Below, piece by piece: positions 4,340 through 19,200 of a stretch of 64,000 bases of DNA. Source of the DNA: Utricularia gibba (lineage: Eukaryota > Streptophyta > Magnoliopsida > Lamiales > Lentibulariaceae); assembly GCA_002189035.1 (NCBI GenBank), contig NEEC01000013.1:1054001-1118000 (forward strand), given 5' to 3'. The translations under genes and the position numbers were made by a program. The notes under the pieces are model-generated. The model made no database searches, was not told the origin of the DNA, and saw only the letters and a program-made list of their open reading frames with translations. The stretch's first letter is position 1. Every line of letters begins with the position of its first letter.

Positions 4340-5544
4340 ATGGACAATTTATCATGTGGATATGAAGACTGCCTTACTCAATGAAACTATGAATGAAATC
4401 ATTTACTATGAGCAACCTGAAAGATATATTAAAAAGGTTGTGGAAAACAAGATATTAAAATTAAACAAGATTTTGTACGGTTTGAAGCAAACTTCTCAAT
4501 CTTGGTATGAAAAAATTCATCACTTTTTTGATGCAGAAGGTGTTTTCCTAACCAATACTAAGCAAACACTGTTTTGTAAAGAAATGAATGGAGAAAAAAT
4601 CTTAGTAAGCATTTATGTTGATGACCTATTGATTACCTATAATGACTCAACTCTAGTGGATTAACTAAAAAATAATCTCAAGTGATAGTTTCAGATAACT
4701 GACCTCTGAATCATGAACTACTATTTGGGAATATAAATTCACCAATATGTGAATAAAGGAACATTTTTGTGTCAAAGGAAAAACTCATTAGAACTAATTC
4801 AATAATTTAAGATGTAAGAAGCAAATGACTACATATGTCCCATGAACTCTAAAGGGATGTTTACTCCATAAGAAGATGAACGTGATTGTGATATTAAAAT
4901 TTATCACAGCCTTGGATGCCTTATTTACCTTAGTCACACAAAGCTTGACTTATGTCATAATGTAAACATGCTTTTCAGGTTCATGAAGAACTCCAAAGTC
5001 TCACTTTGTAGTAGCAGTCAAACAGGTTTTGAGATATGTGAAGAAAACTATTGGTTGTGTAATTTTCTACTCCTACAAGGAAAATGGATATCCAAAGCTT
5101 AAGGGCTACAAGGATCGTGATTACACAAGTAGCTATGACAGTAAGAGCACATCACGATTTTACCTAAATGTTTCACTCATCTCATGGAGTACAAAGCGAC
5201 AATCTATCATTGCCCAATCAACAGCTGAAGCTGCATATATTTCAGCTTCATTGGCTTTAAAATATCAAATCCAAATCCATTGTGTGGATAACAAGGTTAC
5301 AATTCAAATTGCAAAGATCTTCTCAGTTTAGCAAAGATAAACACATTCAAGTCAAATTTCACGCTATCCAAGATGCTATCAGACGGAAAATAATTAACTT
5401 GTAGTTTGTGGAAAGTAGTGAACAATACGCTAATATGTTCACAAAGCCCTTGGGGCGCCTACTATATGAAAGCTTTTGTTTGAGAATATGTGTGAAAAGA
5501 TTGAGGGAAATTCATGAATTATGTTCCGAGAGTGATGGGGGGAG
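4340..5544 (+). pseudogene. Ty1/copia RT-RNase H remnant
   Basis: The first piece (4356-4664) reads MDMKTALLNETMNE, LYGLKQTSQSWYEK and IYVDDLLIT: the copia reverse transcriptase from the usual DVKTAFLNG motif to the YVDD active site. Stops then break the frame. 5029-5331 reads VSLISWSTKRQSIIAQSTAE, the RNase H domain, with copia terminal motifs (SEQYANMFTKPLG) to about 5460. A polypurine tract, atggggggag, ends at 5544, directly before an LTR start. No gag, protease or integrase lies upstream, so the element is 5'-truncated. It abuts the oppositely oriented gypsy element. Confidence 0.85.
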
Positions 5545-7113: not shown

Positions 7114-7660
7114 TTAGGGCGCGTTTGGTTGGTGGATTTAGGTGGGTTGCAGCGTGGGATTAGACATAAACCCACGTTTGGTACGTGGGTTTCATGTGGG
7201 TAAAAATAAACCCACCTGTTGACCATAAACCGGGCGGGAACCTGTGGAGATGGGTTTAACTAAACCCGGGGGGAGGGGGGTCGATTTAGCTAAACCCAGC
7301 TCGGCACTTCCACTTTTTCCCTTGCGTGAACTACATTTGAATGCAGATCTACAACCCAGATTTGTTAGTGCTTTGCCAGTGGCGTCGCCTGTTCTTTGAG
7401 CGCAAGATGGTGGGTCTTTCGGTAAGTATGCTTTCTGTTCTTGGTGGGTTGGTTCACGGTAGCACTGCCAGAGGCCAATCACGGCAGCACCGCATACTGG
7501 ATTTTTATCTGTGAATTTCCAATTTCAGAATCTTTGGTGCTATGTCAGTGAACTTATTTTGCTCGATTTTGGTGACTGTTGAGGGGACATGGATTTTTTC
7601 ACGAAGGGTCATGTCATCTTGAGTGCGGCAGCGGCAATTTTGACTGAATACTTGGTGTAG

Positions 7661-8664
7661 ATGAATGTGTTAGTATACTTACATTGGAAGAAATATCGTA
7701 GGGGATATAGGGTGAGACGTAAGTATTCACTTACACACAAGATTCGTAGACAAGTTGAGTTTATTAGTAGGTTGGTGAGTGATGTGAACAGTGCATCCAT
7801 TGAGAATTTGAGAATCAGCCGAGATGCGTTGGGTATTTTATGTAGCCTATTAGAAACTGTGGGAGGAGCTGTGTCTCGGTGCTTCCAAAAGGTGTTGCAT
7901 GTGGTGCTTTGCTTCCATGAGGTGCTGTTAGAGACCCCAGTAGTTGATGCAGAATGTGCATCCGAAGGAAAGTTTAAAAACTTCCAGGTTGACACATCTT
8001 TCATGCTTCTTTATACGAATGTGTATCCTAAAATTGATTATGCATTTGCAGGGTTGTTTTGGAGCCATAGATGGTGCATACATCGGTATACAAGTTAACA
8101 AATGTGATGCTGCAAGGTATAGAAATCGAAAGAGGGTGATATCCACCAACGTGCTGAGTGTATGTGATGAACACATGAAATTTATATATGTGCTTGCTGG
8201 GTGGGAGGGGTCTGCTACAGATAGTCGGGGTGCTAAACGATGCACTCTCACGATCCGACGGCTTCCGTGTACGCCCAGGTATTTTACTTGTTTAGCCCTT
8301 GTGTATGTGATTCCAATGATTTTATGCACTATGTATACTTGATGACACAAGAACATATTACCTCTGTGACAATGGATATGCCAATAGGGAGGGCTTTTTG
8401 ACACCATATCGTGGAGTCCGTTACCACTTGAAGGAGTGGGGACAGGGAAATAGAGCACCCCAGAATGCCAAAGAGCTATTCAACATGCGGCATGCATCAA
8501 GCAGAAATTTGATCAAACGAGCTTGGGGCTTGATGAAGATGCGGTGGGGTATACTACGGACGGCTAGCTACTATTCCGTAGACACACAGAACCACATTGT
8601 ATTGGCATGTGCTTTACTCCATAACCTCATTCAAAATGGAGGTCCCATTGGACTTCCAGGATGA
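7661..8664 (+). pseudogene. PIF/Harbinger DDE transposase, catalytic Glu lost
   Basis: This would cut and rejoin element ends in the nucleus. An N-terminal helical region (7661-7990) resembles the family (DALGILCSLLETVGGAVSR). After an intron ending near 8051, the core reads GCFGAIDGAYIGIQV (first Asp) and AGWEGSATDSR (second Asp). A second intron (about 8280-8358) joins to YYLCDNGYANREGFLTPYRG and the C-terminal motif FNMRHASSRNLIKRAWG. Family members have Glu in VIERTFG; here the codon is AAA (Lys), so the DDE triad is incomplete. The end, LACALLHNLIQN, is normal for the family. Both introns sit where plant PIF genes often have them. I call it a dead transposase. Confidence 0.88.
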
Positions 8665-8944
8665 AGCTGGGGACACGAGTAATCTAGAAGATGTCACGAC
8701 ATGTGCTGAAGGCAATCAGGGATAGAATAGGTGGCGTGACCAGCAAGCCGGGGGGATGTACACCGAGTGGCTAGAATCCTGCAGATGCCGCTAGTGTAGC
8801 ACTGTTTTAGACATTGTCATGCTAGTGGTTTTCCTTAATTCCCGTTCAGAACCTATCGTGTTGTTTGTACTGAATTACTAAGCACAACTCTTTGCATTGC
8901 AAAGTCATGTCCTAAATTCCCATTTGTACTCCAACTTGAAATTG

Positions 8945-9490
8945 AAATTGCAGAGTATTTGATAGTTGCTGCACAAGTTGTTGGGATTGTACCATAGTGT
9001 CATGTCTTACCATGGGGTAACATGGTAACACACGGTGGATCATTGGAACCAACACCGCGATCTTCAGTTGAGGTGCTACAAAGGCTTGTACGACACCAAA
9101 ATTGTTGGCACACCACGTGTTTCATCATATCCGGTGCTGACAAAAATTAAACATTAGATGAGTGTGAAGCTAGTGCATAGTAGTGAGGGTATTTGGTAGT
9201 ACAGCAATGCGCCATTTGACCAAACACCGGGATCCATAAACTCCAGTGCTTCTGAATGCCTGGGCTATGCTGCGTTCAGTGCTGCACCGCATGTTTCCTC
9301 GTATCCGGTGCTGTCAAGTTTTAGAAGTAAATGCGTATGCAGCTGGTGCATATTAGCGTGGGTGATTGGTAGTACAACAATACTCCATTTGACCAAACAC
9401 CGCGATCCATAATATGCGGTGCTTCTAAACGCCTGAGCTACGCTACGCATTCCGCAGCACTGCGAAAACATAATCCGGTGTTCTAAGTTC
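8945..9490 (+). repeat. Diverged tandem repeat, period about 174 bp
   Basis: Two full units are evident: ttcatcatatccggtgctg at 9121 and ttcctcgtatccggtgctg at 9295, each followed by ggtagtac, ccatttgaccaaacaccg and gtgcttct at matching spacing. Partial units flank them: aacaccgcgatc near 9050 on the left and aatccggtgttct near 9472 on the right. The array lies inside the Harbinger element, downstream of the transposase. Confidence 0.7.
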
Positions 9491-9723
9491 CAAAAATAAA
9501 TTGGCATAAAATATTACAGTTATAAAATATTAATACCCCCCTTGCGCACAATAAAAGCGCCTGACATTGTGCAATTTCCAAAACAACTTCATTAATTCCG
9601 CCCATGCAACTCCACCCTTTCAGCAAACGTGCAGCAGCACCGCGAAAACAGTCTCCTTGACAACCTCTCTAGAACAGCGTCGCAACGGTAGGAACCTTTG
9701 CCCTTAGCGTTTCAAATTCTTCG

Positions 9724-10643
9724 TTGCCATCGTCAAGTAACATGTCTATTGTTTTCCAGATGTTGATGTGTGAGAAACTACGTGTCCGTTTCTCAATTCC
9801 CGATGGTTACATGATGTGGGATAAACAACCGGGCGAAACGTCGGACGGCAAACCATCATCCAGAGTTGGAGCATCGGGATTCGCCGTCAGCACCGAGAAC
9901 TTTCGGTGTGGATTGCGACTCCCCCTGCCCTCTTTCTTGGTGCACATACTTGCTGCACTCCAGATCCCACTCTCCCACCTCACACCACGTTCAGTGGTTT
10001 ACATTCTCGCATTTCTGCTGATCTGTGAAGAGGAGGGCATACCCCCGGAAATGCGTGTCTTCTTTGCGGTTTCTGTTAGTGTCCAACGTAAGGGGAGTCC
10101 GCACTGCTCGCTTCATGGAAAACCTGGTGTGGTTCTGGTTACAGACGTGAGAAGCGCATATGATGATTGGTGGACTAGTTTTGTATGGGTATGCCCACCC
10201 ATCGCTGCAGAATGGCCAACAACGTTGACAGTGTCAGAGAATGTGGGACACCCATCACGTAATCACAAACAATTACTTCGCATATTCACACGTCTTGTGC
10301 AATAGTACCCATGTTTTTTGCTGTTTTCGTTGTAGGCATAGAGGTATTGCCAAAACGTGCGACAAGGAGGTTTGTGAATTTGTTCTCTTTTAGAACAAAG
10401 TCCTTGGAGGACGTCTTGCCCTCCTTCATCAATGCCCCTAGGACACAGCATCCGTGGTGCGGAACCCCTCGACACCGTAGACAACGTAGGAGTACAAATG
10501 ATGATCCTGAGGAGGTGACCCATGAAGAGGATGAAGATGTGCAGCCAGAAGTCAAGGGCAGCATGGAGGGGCCAACACCAATCTGGACACATGACGACGG
10601 GTGGGTGCTGCCATTGCAAAGTATATCCAAATGGATAGACTGA
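9724..10643 (+). pseudogene. Plant 'putative gypsy-type transposase' domain protein remnant
   Basis: The reading from 9724 contains FRCGLRLPLPSFLVHILAAL and LTPRSVVYILAFLLICEEEG. This resembles the plant domain annotated as putative gypsy-type transposase (PF04195), where a 'GFPLPLHPF..R.L' segment precedes 'L.P..W..L..F..LC'. Its function is not established. After 10305 a second open stretch (10311-10643) continues with EDVLPSFINAP and an acidic tail (EEVTHEEDEDVQPEV). It lies inside the Harbinger element and directly precedes the HAD segment. Whether the two formed one gene is unknown. The family match is from memory. Confidence 0.5.
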
Positions 10644-10714
10644 ACGCAGAGAATATTGAACTCTGTGGTCGACTTGCATGGTATGAAGCAAGGTGGCATA
10701 TGGTGGACTGTCGA

Positions 10715-12660
10715 GTGATAACACAGCCCCACCACGGAAGTTGCTAATATTTGACGTGAATGGCGTACTTGGGGACATTGTGTATCCTCGCGAAGTCAGA
10801 TGGGGAGCGCTGAAGCCGTATGCCGTCATTTACGGGCGAAACGGTAATGCGGTGTCATTGATATGCATTTAATATTCGGTGCATGTGTTAGTACTATTTC
10901 TTGTGCTTGTAGTGTATCTTCGACCAGGTGCACGTGAGTTGATACAGTTTTGTATGGAACACTTTGACGTCGCCATCTGGTCTTCAAGAGGATGGTAAGA
11001 CTGACCACCTTGCAGGCAAGGTGCATTCCTGCTGACATTTTTTTTTATGACAGCATATGGTAGTGAACAATTGCACGATGTGGTTTAGTGGTTACTAGGA
11101 CCTGCAGCAGTCAACAAGCTCGTCTTCCAATGGGATGGATCCAGGTGTGTGGACACCGGCTGTCCGGTGCACGACAACAGGAACAACACGGTCTTAATAC
11201 GCTTCTCATCGATGATGCGCCGTACAAGTCACTACACAATCCAGTGAGTTTCTGGCTGCGCTCATTCTCCATCATCTTGCATACGATGATTGTTTAGTTT
11301 CATTGGATAGCCCGAAAATGCCATATTCCAAACAACTTTCAAGTACACCTGATAAAAGAAAAATTATGCAATAACGTTAAATGCAAATTTTCCTATCAAA
11401 TAAATTTATAACCTAACCCACATTCAAGCATAAAACAATTATGAGCATAGTGATTAGGGTGGAACACAAAGAGCAGGTATTTGTCAAGTGATTAGCCAAA
11501 GCATGAAATCAGTGTCACGTTGGTAAATTGGTCTTAACTAGGACTAAGGCAGGACTATAATGAAATACAGTAAAGAAAAGTAGCAAGTTTGGATTCGGTA
11601 GTTTCTGGAATGGAATGGGTGATGCCTTGGGACTCTTAGGGAATATATGCCTATCACTAAAAAAACTCACCTAAATCATAAATCATACAACTAACTCACA
11701 AGATCTAGGTCTACCTGTATTCTTGTTTTTCCCCCTAATCTTTGGTCTACCTCTAATTAGGGCTGTTAAGTTGGGTTTCATGATTTGGTAAGGAAGTGGC
11801 GTGACTCATGGTTTATTAAGTGTAAGGATGGATTAGCATATTTCTCCCCTTTTCACCCCAAGGCACCCCCCTAAATGCTTAGCCACTCGTGCTTAAGGTA
11901 AATGAAAATGGACAAGAAAACATCACCCACAGTATACTCATTTCACAGTCGAATACCAGAAAGCAAACAAGCAAGTAATGTGAAATGTCGACAAAAACTA
12001 AAAACGTCGCTAGCTACTCTTAGCTAGGAGTAACATTCTTCGAAAACATAAATTAGTCTTGAACTTCAGCTTCGTTCCTGTTTGTCTTCCTTCTTCTTCC
12101 TCCTCAGAAAACCTTCTCCAGATAGCTATTCGTGAGTCTTCAAGGGTAGATCTGCTTTCTCTCTCATCTTCCCCCCCTTTTTGTCCAAAATCTCACTTTT
12201 TCACCTTCTTGGACTTTGTGTGTACTCTTTTTCAGATTTCTACCACCTTCTGTGTCACTACACTGTTCATATTCGGCTCCTTGGGATTTGTGTTGCAACA
12301 TGTGCTGCATTGCTTGAAGAAAACTATTAGAAGGTTGGGACTAAATCACAGATTTAGTCCCAACTAAGACTAAATTGGCACTACTACAGTACTTATGTGC
12401 AAAAATACAAAACTAGGCAATAAAGCTTACTTTTTGTAGCACAAAATGAGTAAATTCTATGCATTGAGCCACTCAAAAATATGTGTTATCAACACCGCAG
12501 TCAATGATTGTTCGCTGGTTCGAGGAGGAGATATTAGGTTGTTCTTGAAAGCTCTCATTGACAACATGGATGTACCCACGCACGTCGATCAGCGTCGGGT
12601 AGGTCAACGTCCAATAGACGAGGAACACCCATTGTGGAAGCATAAAAAGACTCTTGTGTA
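10715..12660 (+). pseudogene. Captured FCP1-like HAD phosphatase gene, broken and split by a solo LTR
   Basis: Exon pieces in order read RKLLIFDVNGVLGDIV (motif I, 10733-10780), RPGARELIQFCMEHFDVAIW followed by SSR (10921-10992), LLGPAAVNKLVFQWDGSRCV (11092 on), NTLLIDDAPYKSLHNP (to 11243), AIFQTTFKYTA (ending across the LTR), and GGDIRLFLKALIDNMDVP to a stop at 12658-12660. This is the plant HAD/FCP1-like family, which uses D-x-N-G in place of the classical DxDxT. Introns are retained, so it was captured as DNA, not retrocopied. It is broken by a frameshift between the third and fourth pieces and by the LTR at 11350-12491. It converges on ORF1. Confidence 0.75.
11350..12491 (-). mobile_element. 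Solo LTR, 1142 bp, inside the HAD gene
   Basis: Starts TGATAAAAG and ends GTGTTATCA (TG...CA), with the 5-bp duplication ACACC at 11345-11349 and 12492-12496. It shares end sequence and internal motifs with the copies at 29903, 42249 and 49798. A perfect hairpin, TTGGGACTAAATC...GATTTAGTCCCAA, lies at 12335-12363. No pol or second LTR is present. Removing it and one ACACC restores the HAD reading ...TTFKYTAVND. A TRIM-like non-autonomous element is the alternative. Confidence 0.9.
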
Positions 12661-12821
12661 ACCGATGGTGCACCTTTGAAATTGCATACGCGGTGCTTCC
12701 ACATACGAAGTCACAACACAGTCTACCCTTTGCAGTGCTCATCCCAGTTTAAAGGATGATTAGAAGATGAAATACATCTAGTCCATAAGTCCAACATAAG
12801 GCGGAGCAGCACACAACGGAT

Positions 12822-13940
12822 TTAAGATCTACATTCGGATGCTAAACCATGCACAATAAGCTCTCTTTCACAGTCACTAGAGGCAAGGAAGTAGCGTAAC
12901 CTCGCAAGGTTGGAACTAATCGTCTCTGCTATGGTAAAACGTTCGATGGCAGTTAATTGCACCGGCATACCTCTAATGGTCTCCCCTGCCTGACGCTGAT
13001 TATCCACCAACTCCCGTGCTTGCTGCACCACTGTTAATCTCAAGTGACATAGGTCTTCGCATGTGCACACGTTAAGCTCCTTCATTTTTTTGATGAACTA
13101 CTTCATCATCGATTCCCCTTGATCCCCTGCCGCTTCATCCAGTCCGCCGCGACGACTCGGTGTTGTTGTGTGACTCGAAGTCCCTACTAGGCGTGACGTT
13201 CACACCCTCCGCAGCACAACCAATTGGGTCACAAGGTGTGTCAGCATACGAGAAGTTCATATTGAGTCCAGTGCTATCTGTGTCCAGAGGGCAATCCGAA
13301 AATACTTCCAGATTCTCCCCAACATCTTCCATGAATTTCCTCTTTTTGGTCGCGGTTACATAGCTCATCGTTTTTTCTCCTGTAGCCCGATCCTTTCCAA
13401 AGATTTCCTACCACTCCATGTAATACGGCCACGCTTTGTGTCTTAGGGTGTGTAGTCTGGGTGCATGCTGACATAATAACACAGTCAACATTAGATATAA
13501 CACAGCGACAACATGGCATACGTACCTGATCAATCTCCTTCCAAACCTCATCGTCTGCGTCTACGGTGTAGGTCAGCTCACTGAAACCGGTGCCCGACCT
13601 TGATAAAAAATCTACAAGGAGGTAGTAGTCTTTTTTCCAGGTGCGCACCTTGCTAGATATATGCGGGTGTGCGCGGATGTCGGTTCTAGGTCGGAGTTTC
13701 AAGAACTTTGTCTCTAATGCTCGGTGATACAATTTTCCAACCTTCTTTCACTATCTGCTTCAAAGCGTGGAACAAGTCTTTCTCCTTATCTGGCTTCCAG
13801 GCACGTTTCGTTTTTTTGTGAGACTCTTCCACCACGATTGGGCTATGCATACCTGCAATCTTTGCTGGAGGAAAGAAAACAGCAAGAACAAAGCACCTAC
13901 ACTGAGCACTTACCACAAGTAAACCGTAAAATTCACTCAA
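12822..13940 (-). pseudogene. Harbinger ORF1: Myb/SANT-like DNA-binding protein
   Basis: PIF/Harbinger elements carry a second protein that binds element ends and helps the transposase enter the nucleus. The minus strand reads RAWKPDKEKDLFHALKQIV (13850-13750), the start of the Myb/SANT-like domain. It continues with LRPRTDIRAHPHISSKVRTW (13700-13630) and FSELTYTVDADDEVWKEI, its usual second half. Later exons give MSYVTATKKRKFMED (13368 on) and a C-terminal piece ending LASSDCERELIVHGLA before the stop at 12822. Splices were not fully resolved and frame changes occur between pieces, so intactness is uncertain. It is convergent with the HAD fragment and transposase. Confidence 0.78.
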
Positions 13941-14341
13941 AATTCAACGGATTTCAAACGAGAAACTCTGCGCAACGAAGGAAGTATACAAACTGGACTT
14001 AACCCATGGCTCTTCACTCTCAATTACTTGTAACAACCGAGTGTGAAAATCGGTGGACAAAGGGGGAAAACTAATGGTAATAAAGAGGAATATGTCTGAT
14101 TGGTAAAGTCGGTGTGAGTCGGTGGACGAGTGTGAAAGGCTATATTGGTAAATTCCCATGAAAATTATGTATAAACCCAATTTTATACCCACCTACCAAA
14201 CGTGGGTTCATTTAAACCCAAATAATGTAAACTCATCAACCAAACATGATTTACAGAGACTAACCCCACAAACCCGGTTCCCTAAACCCAAATAAACTAA
14301 ACCTGGGTTTAGGCCAAACCCAGCAACCAAACGCGCCCTTA

Positions 14342-15363: not shown

Positions 15364-16245
15364 CTACACATTTTCCGGCAACTGAAACCTCTGCGAGCCC
15401 ATAATCCGGCGAGAGGGGGTCTCTACGAAGAGAGCAATCCCACATCTTGCTGGGTTAAAATCCTCCCGGAGACAAAAGCTCACGGCCCCGGAGATAGTTT
15501 TCTTGGCGGAGATGTCCTTCACAGAGCAAAGCTTTTCTATGCCACGCACCACGTAGTCGCTAGCCAAAACCCTGCCCTTGTTTGCTCCGGCTTCGCAGTC
15601 GGTGATCAGGCCGCTCTCGAACAAAGCAACCATGACGTTCACTCCTTGACCGTCCACCTTCGTCCTCAGGGATCCCGTCAATGATACTTCAATCGTCCCT
15701 TGAGATCCCCTTTTGAATGTAGCCTACACCCCATGTAAGAAAAACAGATAAATAAATACGGACAATTTTAATAATTAGTAAATGAAAAAATTGTATCATA
15801 AAACATATAAAAAAAATTAATACATCACCTGGAAAAGGGGTGCCGGAGTTCTCCGTGCGGCGATGATGCAGGAAAGCAGGGCCTCTTCCTCATTGCCCAT
15901 GCATTGGTCGGCGCCCTGTACCACGATCTGCGGCGTGAAGATGGTATCGAGATGCAGGGTTTCAACGTAAGCCTTCTGGCGCACGGTCCATTGACTGGAG
16001 GCAAAGGGATCCTTCCATCCATTGTAATCCCAGTAATCGACGTGGTACGCCAGAAGAATCAACGGGATTTCGAGATTGAAATCGCCCCGGCCGAGACGGG
16101 AGAAGAGGGATTCCGCCTCCGTGGAGGCCGCGCATCCCTGGGAGGAGAAGAGCTCCACCAGGATTGGGCCCAACTCCGGCGTGGTGGCGACGTGGCTCGA
16201 TCCAGAGGATACTTTTCCAAAACAGTTGAAGAGACGAGGCGCCAT
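15364..16245 (-). CDS. DUF1223 thioredoxin-fold protein
   Basis: Two exons: 16245-15829 (139 codons) and 15723-15364 (119 residues plus stop), with a GT-AG phase 0 intron, give 258 residues. The start is the ATG at 16245 (MAPRLFNCF); upstream in-frame ATGs would add a stretch outside the conserved domain. The core reads PILVELFSSQGCAASTEAES, then AYHVDYWDYNGWKDPFAS and YVETLHLDTIFTPQIVVQG, the hallmarks of DUF1223. Bacterial members have a CxxC-like site; here the Cys is followed by AAS, so a two-cysteine redox site is not evident. The function is not established. I see no clear targeting peptide. Length is normal for the family and nothing is broken. Confidence 0.87.
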
Positions 16246-19200
16246 GATCGAACGCTTCGCCCCGATCGGAAATCGGTTCAGGTGGATGGAGAATGCAGAA
16301 CCAGAAATGATATGATAACTAATGGACGACACGGAGTCCACCAGGAAACATTGGCCATGCAAATGCATGGGATCACCCCATTTTCGATATATTATTTTAA
16401 ATTAAAATTGCATCTTAAAAAAAAAAAGAATATTTCCATTAACCACAGTAAATTTGTGATACTAGAAGGCTACCTGGATTTCACAAATACATGAATTTAA
16501 ATAAACCATTTAAAAAACACCTATAGTCCCTATTTAATTTTTAAAATACCTGAATATTAAAATGTTAAAAATACAACCATTCTTTAAAAAAATTTAATTC
16601 TATTAAAAAACAATTAAGTGACATTTTTCTTCACACACCCAAAGTATGTTGTGGAAAAAATATTTTTTAAAAAAATTGAAAGCATATTAAAAATATATTT
16701 TGAGAAGAACTATGATTGAATCTCTAAAATCATGAACCATTTGTGTAAATGATTCAACATTTTTTTGACGATTTAAGACACTACTATAACCTAGTATGGA
16801 AACTAATGCATCAATGTTTAATGATTTATTATGCCTTAATTTTTAGGTATTAATTATGCACTAAATTTCATAAAACGTCACACAACAAAAATATATAAAT
16901 ATAAATAATTATTAATTATTGATGATACACATGGGACATTTTAAAAGTACCTCCTTACTGGGCCCTTTTATCAAAATACTTGTGTTATAAAATTTTTTTA
17001 GCATATTATCTGTTATTACATTTTTATTATGAAAATATTTGTAATTTGTATTTATTGCTAAAACACCAATATTTTTACTATATTTTTTTTACATGAATCG
17101 AATAGTGAAAATCATGTAATTTTTTTAATTGAATTATTTTAATTGAAAACAAATTTGAAACATTTTTAATTTATTTTTTTATATTTAATCCATAAAAATT
17201 TAAAAATTTTAATAAATATTGTAATTATACATTTTATATATGCTTGTTTGTTTATTAATAAAATATTACAAAGAAATTGCAACATTCTGAAATTTGTGAC
17301 ACATTAGCTTAGTTGGTTATTGGTTTGATAATATTATGATTTATTAAGATGTTTTGAATTTGAATATTAAAAATAAAGTTTTATAAATTTGACTTATTCT
17401 ATTGGTATCTGATGAGTACAAATATAGTCACATTTAGATGGATAAATATGTAGTATTAATCTCAATTCACGGTATGTATTATAATTCTTGATTTTTTTAA
17501 TAATTATTTTTTTCTTTATCAAAAACTTAAATTAAATATTTTTTTGGACAATAATAATTCATACCATTTCAGATAAACTAATATATTTTAATATACAATA
17601 TATACATTACAAAAAAAATTAAAAAAACAGGTATTACAATAATAATTTCAAAACAACAGAAATTTTTATTATAAAAAAATTACATTTATTTTGATGAATA
17701 CAAAAAAAGAACAGGCATTTTGAAAAAAACAATTATGACATAGGTATTTAACTAAATTTATGCTCTATCGCTTCTTTTGTAAGGATTTTTAAATATAATT
17801 ACTTAATTATAATATTAGACTATAGATGAATATAAATAATAATTAATTAACGTTGAAACATGCTTTTGAAATAAAAAAAAATAGCAAGATGGGTATTTTT
17901 TTAATAAAGTTTGGACGGTTGGGATTTTTCAAAGTTTTAAAAATTGCAAGTGGGTACATTTTTAAACAAGCCCTATAAAAAAGCTTTTTTCATTTTCCAC
18001 CCGTCTGACCTGGCGCCTAAACACTCCGACTCCAATTAGTTTACCACCATATATTTGAATCATGAGTTTATCTCCCGGAATTGCGTAACTGGAGCCCACC
18101 GACTATGATGCAAGTATTGTTCTTTTTTTATATATACATTTACGTATGGATACACGAATTTTCGAATATACGTATAAATTCATATACATGTATTCGATAT
18201 CGTTTTATTAAAAATATTACTATTTACTAATTTCCTTCACTTTTTGGTCAATATTAGTTCCATTTTTCTCATTTGATGTTGTGCAGATTGTATCTTTTAC
18301 AGTCCATTAGCAGCATCAACTATCATTAGAAATCATAAGAATGTTTTATCTAGCAATGTTGTGTCCTAGAAAAGAGTTTATGTAATATTTATTGAAGTTT
18401 TACGTTAAATCATCATAATTAAATATTTTGTTTAAAAACATTGATTAAACATTATGAAAAACTTAATACTTTATTATTGATACTTCTTTTTAAATATTAT
18501 ATATTAAATTCCTTATTCATTATTTTATAATTTTATTTATTTATAATAAATATTTTTTGTTTTAAATATAAATACATTTAAATTTCGTGTTTGAATCCCT
18601 GAATTCAAGGATTTGTTTGATAATGTAAAATATAATCAATTTAAGCTAATAAAATTGTTTTATTTTATGATATAAAATTTAATAAAATAAATTATATATT
18701 GTAGAGTAGACTAAAATTGAATAATATAATTTTTAACGTTTATTAAAAGTGAATATTTTTTATTTAATCACTAAAAACATAGATTTAATAAGTTTAATAT
18801 AAGCTAATTAGAAAATTTAAATATGTAATTTTACAATAAAATGATTAAATATTAAAAAATTAAATAAAATCAATTCAAAAAATTATGTTTATAATATAGC
18901 CATCATACTCGAACTTCACCGGGTTCCCACTACTTCTTACGCTTAGAGCCAGGCCCTCTTTAAAAAATAATTGCATGTTGTACAGATGCAATTAAATAAA
19001 CGAAACTTGATCGACTTAATAACTTTTTTCAATTTCAATCTTTTTTTATTTGAATTAAATATTCAAGAGTAAAACTATTTCAACACTCTGCTTTGTTGTC
19101 CATCCAAACCTGGTTGTCCGGGGACCTTATTGCCCGATACAGAAATTGTTCAAATAACAGAAATATTTGACTTTTTCACTAGATTACTAAAATAATTATT

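Follow-up and report, generated by a model that had tools for sequence, protein, structure and literature searches.

Does an FCP1-like HAD gene that lies, introns included, inside a PIF/Harbinger transposon merely travel with its carrier, or does it work for it? The question is raised by a stretch of 64 000 nucleotides from Utricularia gibba (contig NEEC01000013.1, positions 1 054 001 to 1 118 000), here called the window, in which a sequence-only reading had recognised such a gene between matching terminal inverted repeats (TIRs) with a TTA duplication, and had proposed that it was captured from the host as genomic DNA and moved with the element.

The carrier is a 7.2 kb element (7117-14338 of the window) flanked by TTA duplications: at the left boundary TTA is followed by GGGCGCGTTTGGTTG, starting at 7117, and at the right one CAACCAAACGCGCCC, ending at 14338, is followed by TTA. 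The features of PIF/Harbinger are present, namely a PIF-type DDE transposase (PF13359), matched over three stretches (about 7748-8056, 8043-8228 and 8338-8637), and TIRs with a 3-bp TTA duplication, which another copy, C460b, also has at both its ends. The HAD gene sits between the transposase and a Myb-like ORF1, the match of the latter to the Myb/SANT-like profile PF12776 being, at 20.2 bits, just under the Pfam cut-off of 23.6. Two other features of the window were noticed by eye: a fragment at 4987-5331 (+) reminiscent of the RNase H region at the end of a Ty1/copia polyprotein, and exons at 15364-16401 (-) resembling a plant DUF1223-type gene.

All the HAD motifs quoted in the sequence-only reading were found in the window (LLIFDVNGVLGDIV, VAIWSSR, LLIDDAPYK and GGDIRLFL), and the assignment to the FCP1-like proteins was borne out by the Pfam profile of NIF/FCP1-type domains, PF03031 (cut-off 21.8 bits), which scored 24.7 bits against the exons of the window and 44.5 bits against a family HAD protein assembled from several copies. 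By profile, then, the HAD part belongs to the FCP1/NIF family, but phosphatase activity may be absent. Catalytic FCP1/SCP phosphatases have DxDx(T/V) as motif I; here this motif is of the form DxN, DVNG in the element copies and DLNG in the host copy, and with this variant catalysis must be considered unproven. The first aspartate (in DVNG), WSSR, the lysine and LL[IV]DD are all retained across lineages that are only 44-59% identical, decayed copies excepted.

The gene was correctly seen as being of host type, but it is not free-standing. In most of the copies examined, a Transposase_28 domain (T28, PF04195) is found 5′ of HAD, and genome-wide HAD lies downstream of T28, on the same strand and within 2.5 kb, in at least 51 cases, against five other arrangements among the matches listed. 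A continuous open frame leads from the linker, via a coiled-coil-like stretch (e.g. AENLELCGRLAWYEARW), to HAD motif I in three copies (L081, L082 and L083), and in C304b the frame is open as far as the start of HAD; the intron between T28 and the linker is clear in lineage B and inferred in the lineage of the window. Since open frames run from linker to HAD in several copies, HAD is, as far as reading frames can tell, the C-terminal part of a fusion protein, which we call T28-HAD (Table 1).

Table 1. Features of the window element and of T28-HAD loci linked to other transposases (window positions unless a contig is given)
Feature	Position	Strand	Remarks
TTA duplication (7114-7116) and left TIR	7114-7141	+	TIR GGGCGCGTTTGGTTGGTGGATTTAG; left end matches other copies
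PIF/Harbinger DDE transposase	7748-8637	+	PF13359, Pfam E 2.1e-20, 73.4 bits; tblastn map
T28-HAD exon 1	9742-10258	+	T28 domain (PF04195, ~9892-10065), Pfam E 3e-11
T28-HAD exon 2	10336-10843	+	Linker, acidic stretch, coiled-coil-like stretch, HAD motif I (LLIFDVNGVL)
T28-HAD exon 3	10913-10994	+	HAD motif II (VAIWSSR); introns on either side of phase 1 and phase 2
T28-HAD exon 4	11064-11243	+	HAD motif III/IV (LLIDDAPYK); ~23 codons deleted in window copy
T28-HAD last exon, start	11311-11349	+	Broken by solo LTR
Solo LTR (TGATAA...TTATCA), nested in last HAD exon	11350-12491		1142 bp; ACACC at 11345-11349 and 12492-12496
T28-HAD last exon, remainder	12497-12661	+	GGDIRLFL... to stop
ORF1, Myb/SANT-like	12822-13943	-	PF12776; convergent with T28-HAD; position and strand kept in other copies
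Right TIR (to 14338) and TTA duplication (14339-14341)	14314-14341	-	
hAT transposase, then T28 and HAD	C2:1791111-1794629; C304:943920-947593; C375:568443-572276; others		Same strand, fixed spacing
T28-HAD of a distinct lineage, divergent from a MULE transposase	C244:738726-743714; C414:306951-311842; C3:5055961-5062424		~4-6 kb

Three of the GT-AG introns proposed for the HAD part are genuine (10844-10912, phase 1; 10995-11063, phase 2; 11244-11310, phase 0), but the long last one, around 11250-12500, had to be rejected as a true intron: it consists mostly of a 1142 bp repeat inserted within the exon. This repeat is a solo LTR, because it starts with TG and ends with CA, is flanked by a 5-bp duplication, ACACC, and belongs to a high-copy repeat of the genome (about 1.1-1.2 kb), at least nine of whose 19 other copies read have perfect 5-bp duplications. 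Small frame lesions are present in exon 2 of the window copy. In alignment with its relatives, this copy is without the internal segment around TVKLKLLNHVWGANTEFKGKYHR, and in all it has lost 34 codons and contains one stop; for these reasons, and with its last exon split by the LTR as well, it is a dead gene. An AlphaFold model of the T28 domain of the window alone had a mean pLDDT of 34, too low for use.

All copies, counts and comparisons reported here come from one genome, in a 100 Mb assembly where dozens of loci have HAD exons. About 25 other copies were read, and wherever the sequence reaches, the order is constant: transposase, T28, linker, HAD and a reversed Myb gene. In at least 41 cases a PIF transposase is followed by HAD within 6 kb on the same strand, against three other arrangements among the matches listed; this count, like that for T28 and HAD, is a lower bound, the best candidates having been scored. 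The view that the HAD gene moved with the element is thus upheld by the identical placement of the block in some 25 copies, and the transposase lies within the same element both in the window and in many of the copies, which sets them apart from non-autonomous elements of the Pack-TYPE kind. Most of the copies read have stops or frameshifts and are pseudogenes. Some PIF relatives (L074 and L078) do not have T28-HAD, the Myb gene directly following the transposase in them, and T28-HAD is therefore not essential for transposition; in the transposase tree these relatives are not cleanly separated from the HAD-bearing lineages, which fits gain of T28-HAD as well as its loss. Two T28-HAD loci of another lineage, C304:866475-867743 (+) and C304:970548-971816 (-), have identical scores and are about 100 kb apart on opposite strands, reflecting either recent transposition or inverted duplication.

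A short motif, [GC][CT]GGTG[CT]T, is dispersed through the non-coding parts of clade A elements at about 6-13 per kb, when about 0.4 would be expected (in the window at 8670-9740 and 12670-12820, and at the corresponding places in other clade A copies), and is without enrichment in the coding parts; tandem repeats account for part of the excess. Its occurrences are possible candidates for binding sites of the transposase or of ORF1. Despite a roughly 20-fold non-coding enrichment in the HAD-bearing clade A, we rejected the idea that the motif is bound specifically by T28-HAD, because in the HAD-less and the clade B relatives different words are frequent (CACCCA and CACCGAG).

How selection acted on HAD was assessed in the close clade by comparing second codon positions with introns, separately for variants common to at least three copies and for private ones. 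Shared variants amounted to 0.089 per site at second codon positions versus 0.248 in introns (Fisher p=4e-6), whereas private variants were about equally frequent in both (0.346 versus 0.386, p=0.39). Because the old, shared variants avoid second codon positions and the private ones do not, HAD was evidently under purifying selection while the element was mobile and decayed neutrally after insertion, as would a transposon gene that is required during movement and left to drift afterwards. The comparison of dN/dS suggested along with the sequence-only reading points the same way, with a median of 0.43 across pairs of element copies, 0.29 where dS exceeds 0.3, and no pair at or above 1. The transposase, T28 and Myb genes follow the same trend, with fewer sites.

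As to the origin of the HAD part, a host-type gene at C4:3539000-3542880, of the type that we take to be the plant ‘FCP1 homology domain-containing protein C1271.03c-like’ gene, contains a full HAD domain in six exons, has the DxN form of motif I, and has three introns at the same sites and in the same phases (1, 2, 0) as the element gene. It differs by two further introns and by an identity of only 34-39% to the HAD of the element, and T28 was not detected in the stretch read around this gene, the one host gene examined. The three common intron positions and phases argue for capture as genomic DNA, as had been proposed, and the low identity for an old event. Presumably the host gene type predates the transposon copy, and the HAD part was probably taken, with its introns, from a relative of this conserved plant gene.

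The sequence-only reading placed the gene in PIF/Harbinger, rightly so for the window, but T28-HAD is not peculiar to this superfamily. At many T28-HAD loci a PIF transposase is not found in the vicinity, and at one of these, L081, a hAT transposase is convergent with T28-HAD; a degenerate direct repeat array (4199-4807 of L081) is seen there just 3′ of the lineage B HAD gene, before the hAT transposase. In the sub-lineage with 66-88% identity to the HAD of L081, four of the six loci are convergent with hAT at about 1 kb. Genome-wide, a hAT transposase precedes T28 on the same strand at 0.5-1.9 kb in 14 cases and is found in other arrangements in five, when about 1.3 would be expected in all, and there are 10 tandem pairs of hAT and HAD. 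Judged by spacing and orientation, these loci look like hAT elements that carry this accessory gene as well. For MULE the same kind of evidence is no more than suggestive: MULE transposases adjoin T28 within 6 kb in 12 cases versus 2.1 expected, in mixed orientations. The CACTA transposase had no matches anywhere in the genome, which is therefore uninformative on an association of CACTA with T28-HAD.

Taken together, we think it somewhat probable that T28-HAD is an accessory gene in a lineage of plant DNA transposons, encoding T28, an acidic and coiled-coil-like linker and an FCP1/NIF-type HAD domain, and it has the appearance of a working gene, not of a passenger. Several other explanations have to be set against this one. 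The simplest, that a host gene or another element inserted once into a single PIF copy, was rejected and has practically no probability left: nothing speaks for it beyond the nested solo LTR, itself a separate insertion with its own duplication, and with no separate boundary around it the HAD block recurs at dozens of loci, in the same order in the copies read and with fixed strand and spacing in the counts. It could also be that HAD is a captured fragment of the Pack-TYPE kind, hitchhiking without any function for the element. Plant DNA transposons, including PIF and hAT, do often capture gene fragments (PMC8903248, PMC2528002), and both the decay of most copies and the existence of HAD-less sister elements would fit; we nevertheless hold passive carriage to be quite improbable, as a complete HAD, fused to T28, keeps its active-site residues in such divergent lineages, constraint is seen on shared variants and not on private ones, and T28-HAD recurs beside a second transposase superfamily.

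Somewhat less improbable, though still unlikely, is that T28-HAD is mainly a family of host genes, or moves as an independent unit, and was repeatedly picked up by transposons or landed beside them, in which case the association would tell little about a function for the element. Several loci with no recognised transposase nearby could be read in this way, as could the antisense ORF of Retand LTR retrotransposons, in which T28 stands by itself (PMC11963269), but order, strand and spacing are fixed relative to PIF and hAT transposases, the host gene examined has HAD with no T28 detected, and T28-HAD copies decay like transposon copies. The remaining alternative concerns the role of HAD, which may be a pseudo-enzyme kept for binding or dimerisation while T28 does the work, for instance as a DNA-binding regulator. 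The asparagine in place of the second aspartate of motif I, in element and host copies alike, and the existence of T28 without HAD in Retand (PMC11963269) both speak for it; the nucleophilic aspartate, WSS, the lysine and the DD pair are, however, all retained, which a pure scaffold would not need, and we give the non-catalytic reading perhaps one chance among several.

If T28-HAD is indeed an accessory gene, its protein would act in trans in the nucleus to the benefit of its own element, most plausibly by countering silencing or by promoting transcription or transposition. HAD domains of the FCP1/NIF type have phosphoproteins as their targets, the classical one being the tail of RNA polymerase II, and the HAD part might thus act on this tail, on a chromatin factor or on the transposase, once the T28 part had brought the protein to DNA or chromatin. 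T28 is predicted to bind DNA (PMC11963269). Going one step further, T28-HAD could be a factor that acts in trans, probably against silencing or to license transposition, and that was exchanged among PIF/Harbinger, hAT and perhaps MULE elements, as ULP1 recurs in MULE and CACTA (PMC2528002), a proposal that we offer tentatively.

Among known systems, T28-HAD is comparable to VANC and KIU of the Vandal elements (non-TIR MULEs), and KIU would be its closest functional parallel. VANC relieves the silencing of related copies, and KIU, in which a VANC protein is joined to captured Ulp1, frees Vandal elements from methylation (PMC13317346). As in T28-HAD, a transposon-specific protein is there fused to a captured host enzyme domain and encoded by a third gene, but the enzyme is Ulp1 instead of an FCP1-like HAD with T28 at its N-terminus, and its carriers are elements of PIF/Harbinger and, apparently, of hAT; in T28-HAD the sole Pfam domains detected are PF04195 and PF03031, with no Ulp1 or VANC domain. 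KIU and the presence of ULP1 in MULE and CACTA elements are precedents for captured enzymes that turned into genes of a transposon. Classical plant PIF/Harbinger elements (PIF, PePIF1 and AtPIF2) share TIRs, the TTA duplication and the DDE transposase with the window element, where their Myb/SANT-like ORF1 has a putative counterpart, but have two genes, whereas the window lineage has T28-HAD as a third. In Pack-TYPE elements and in the transduplications by PIF and hAT of grapevine, host exons and introns are likewise captured inside a DNA transposon; Pack-TYPE elements are, however, non-autonomous and carry mostly copy-specific fragments, while T28-HAD is one conserved gene in transposase-bearing elements. 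The antisense T28 ORF of Retand is also an accessory ORF with PF04195, in an element of another class and with no HAD fusion reported. Neither HAD/FCP1 cargo nor a T28-HAD gene was found in the open-access literature searched on Harbinger or other transposons.

Plant DNA transposons often capture pieces of genes, and few captured genes are known as working parts of an element. Selection has maintained T28-HAD across deep divergence, with its HAD part joined to a domain that has no assigned function and is also present in other transposons. Should the module prove common to unrelated superfamilies, this would point to a shared obstacle, for instance silencing or a phosphorylation signal of the host, against which a HAD-type protein is of help, and an exchange among superfamilies, if true, would make T28-HAD the first accessory gene of the phosphatase type in plant transposons. 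For the plant genomes themselves, the consequence is that ‘FCP1-like’ genes annotated as fused to Transposase_28 may be transposon genes.
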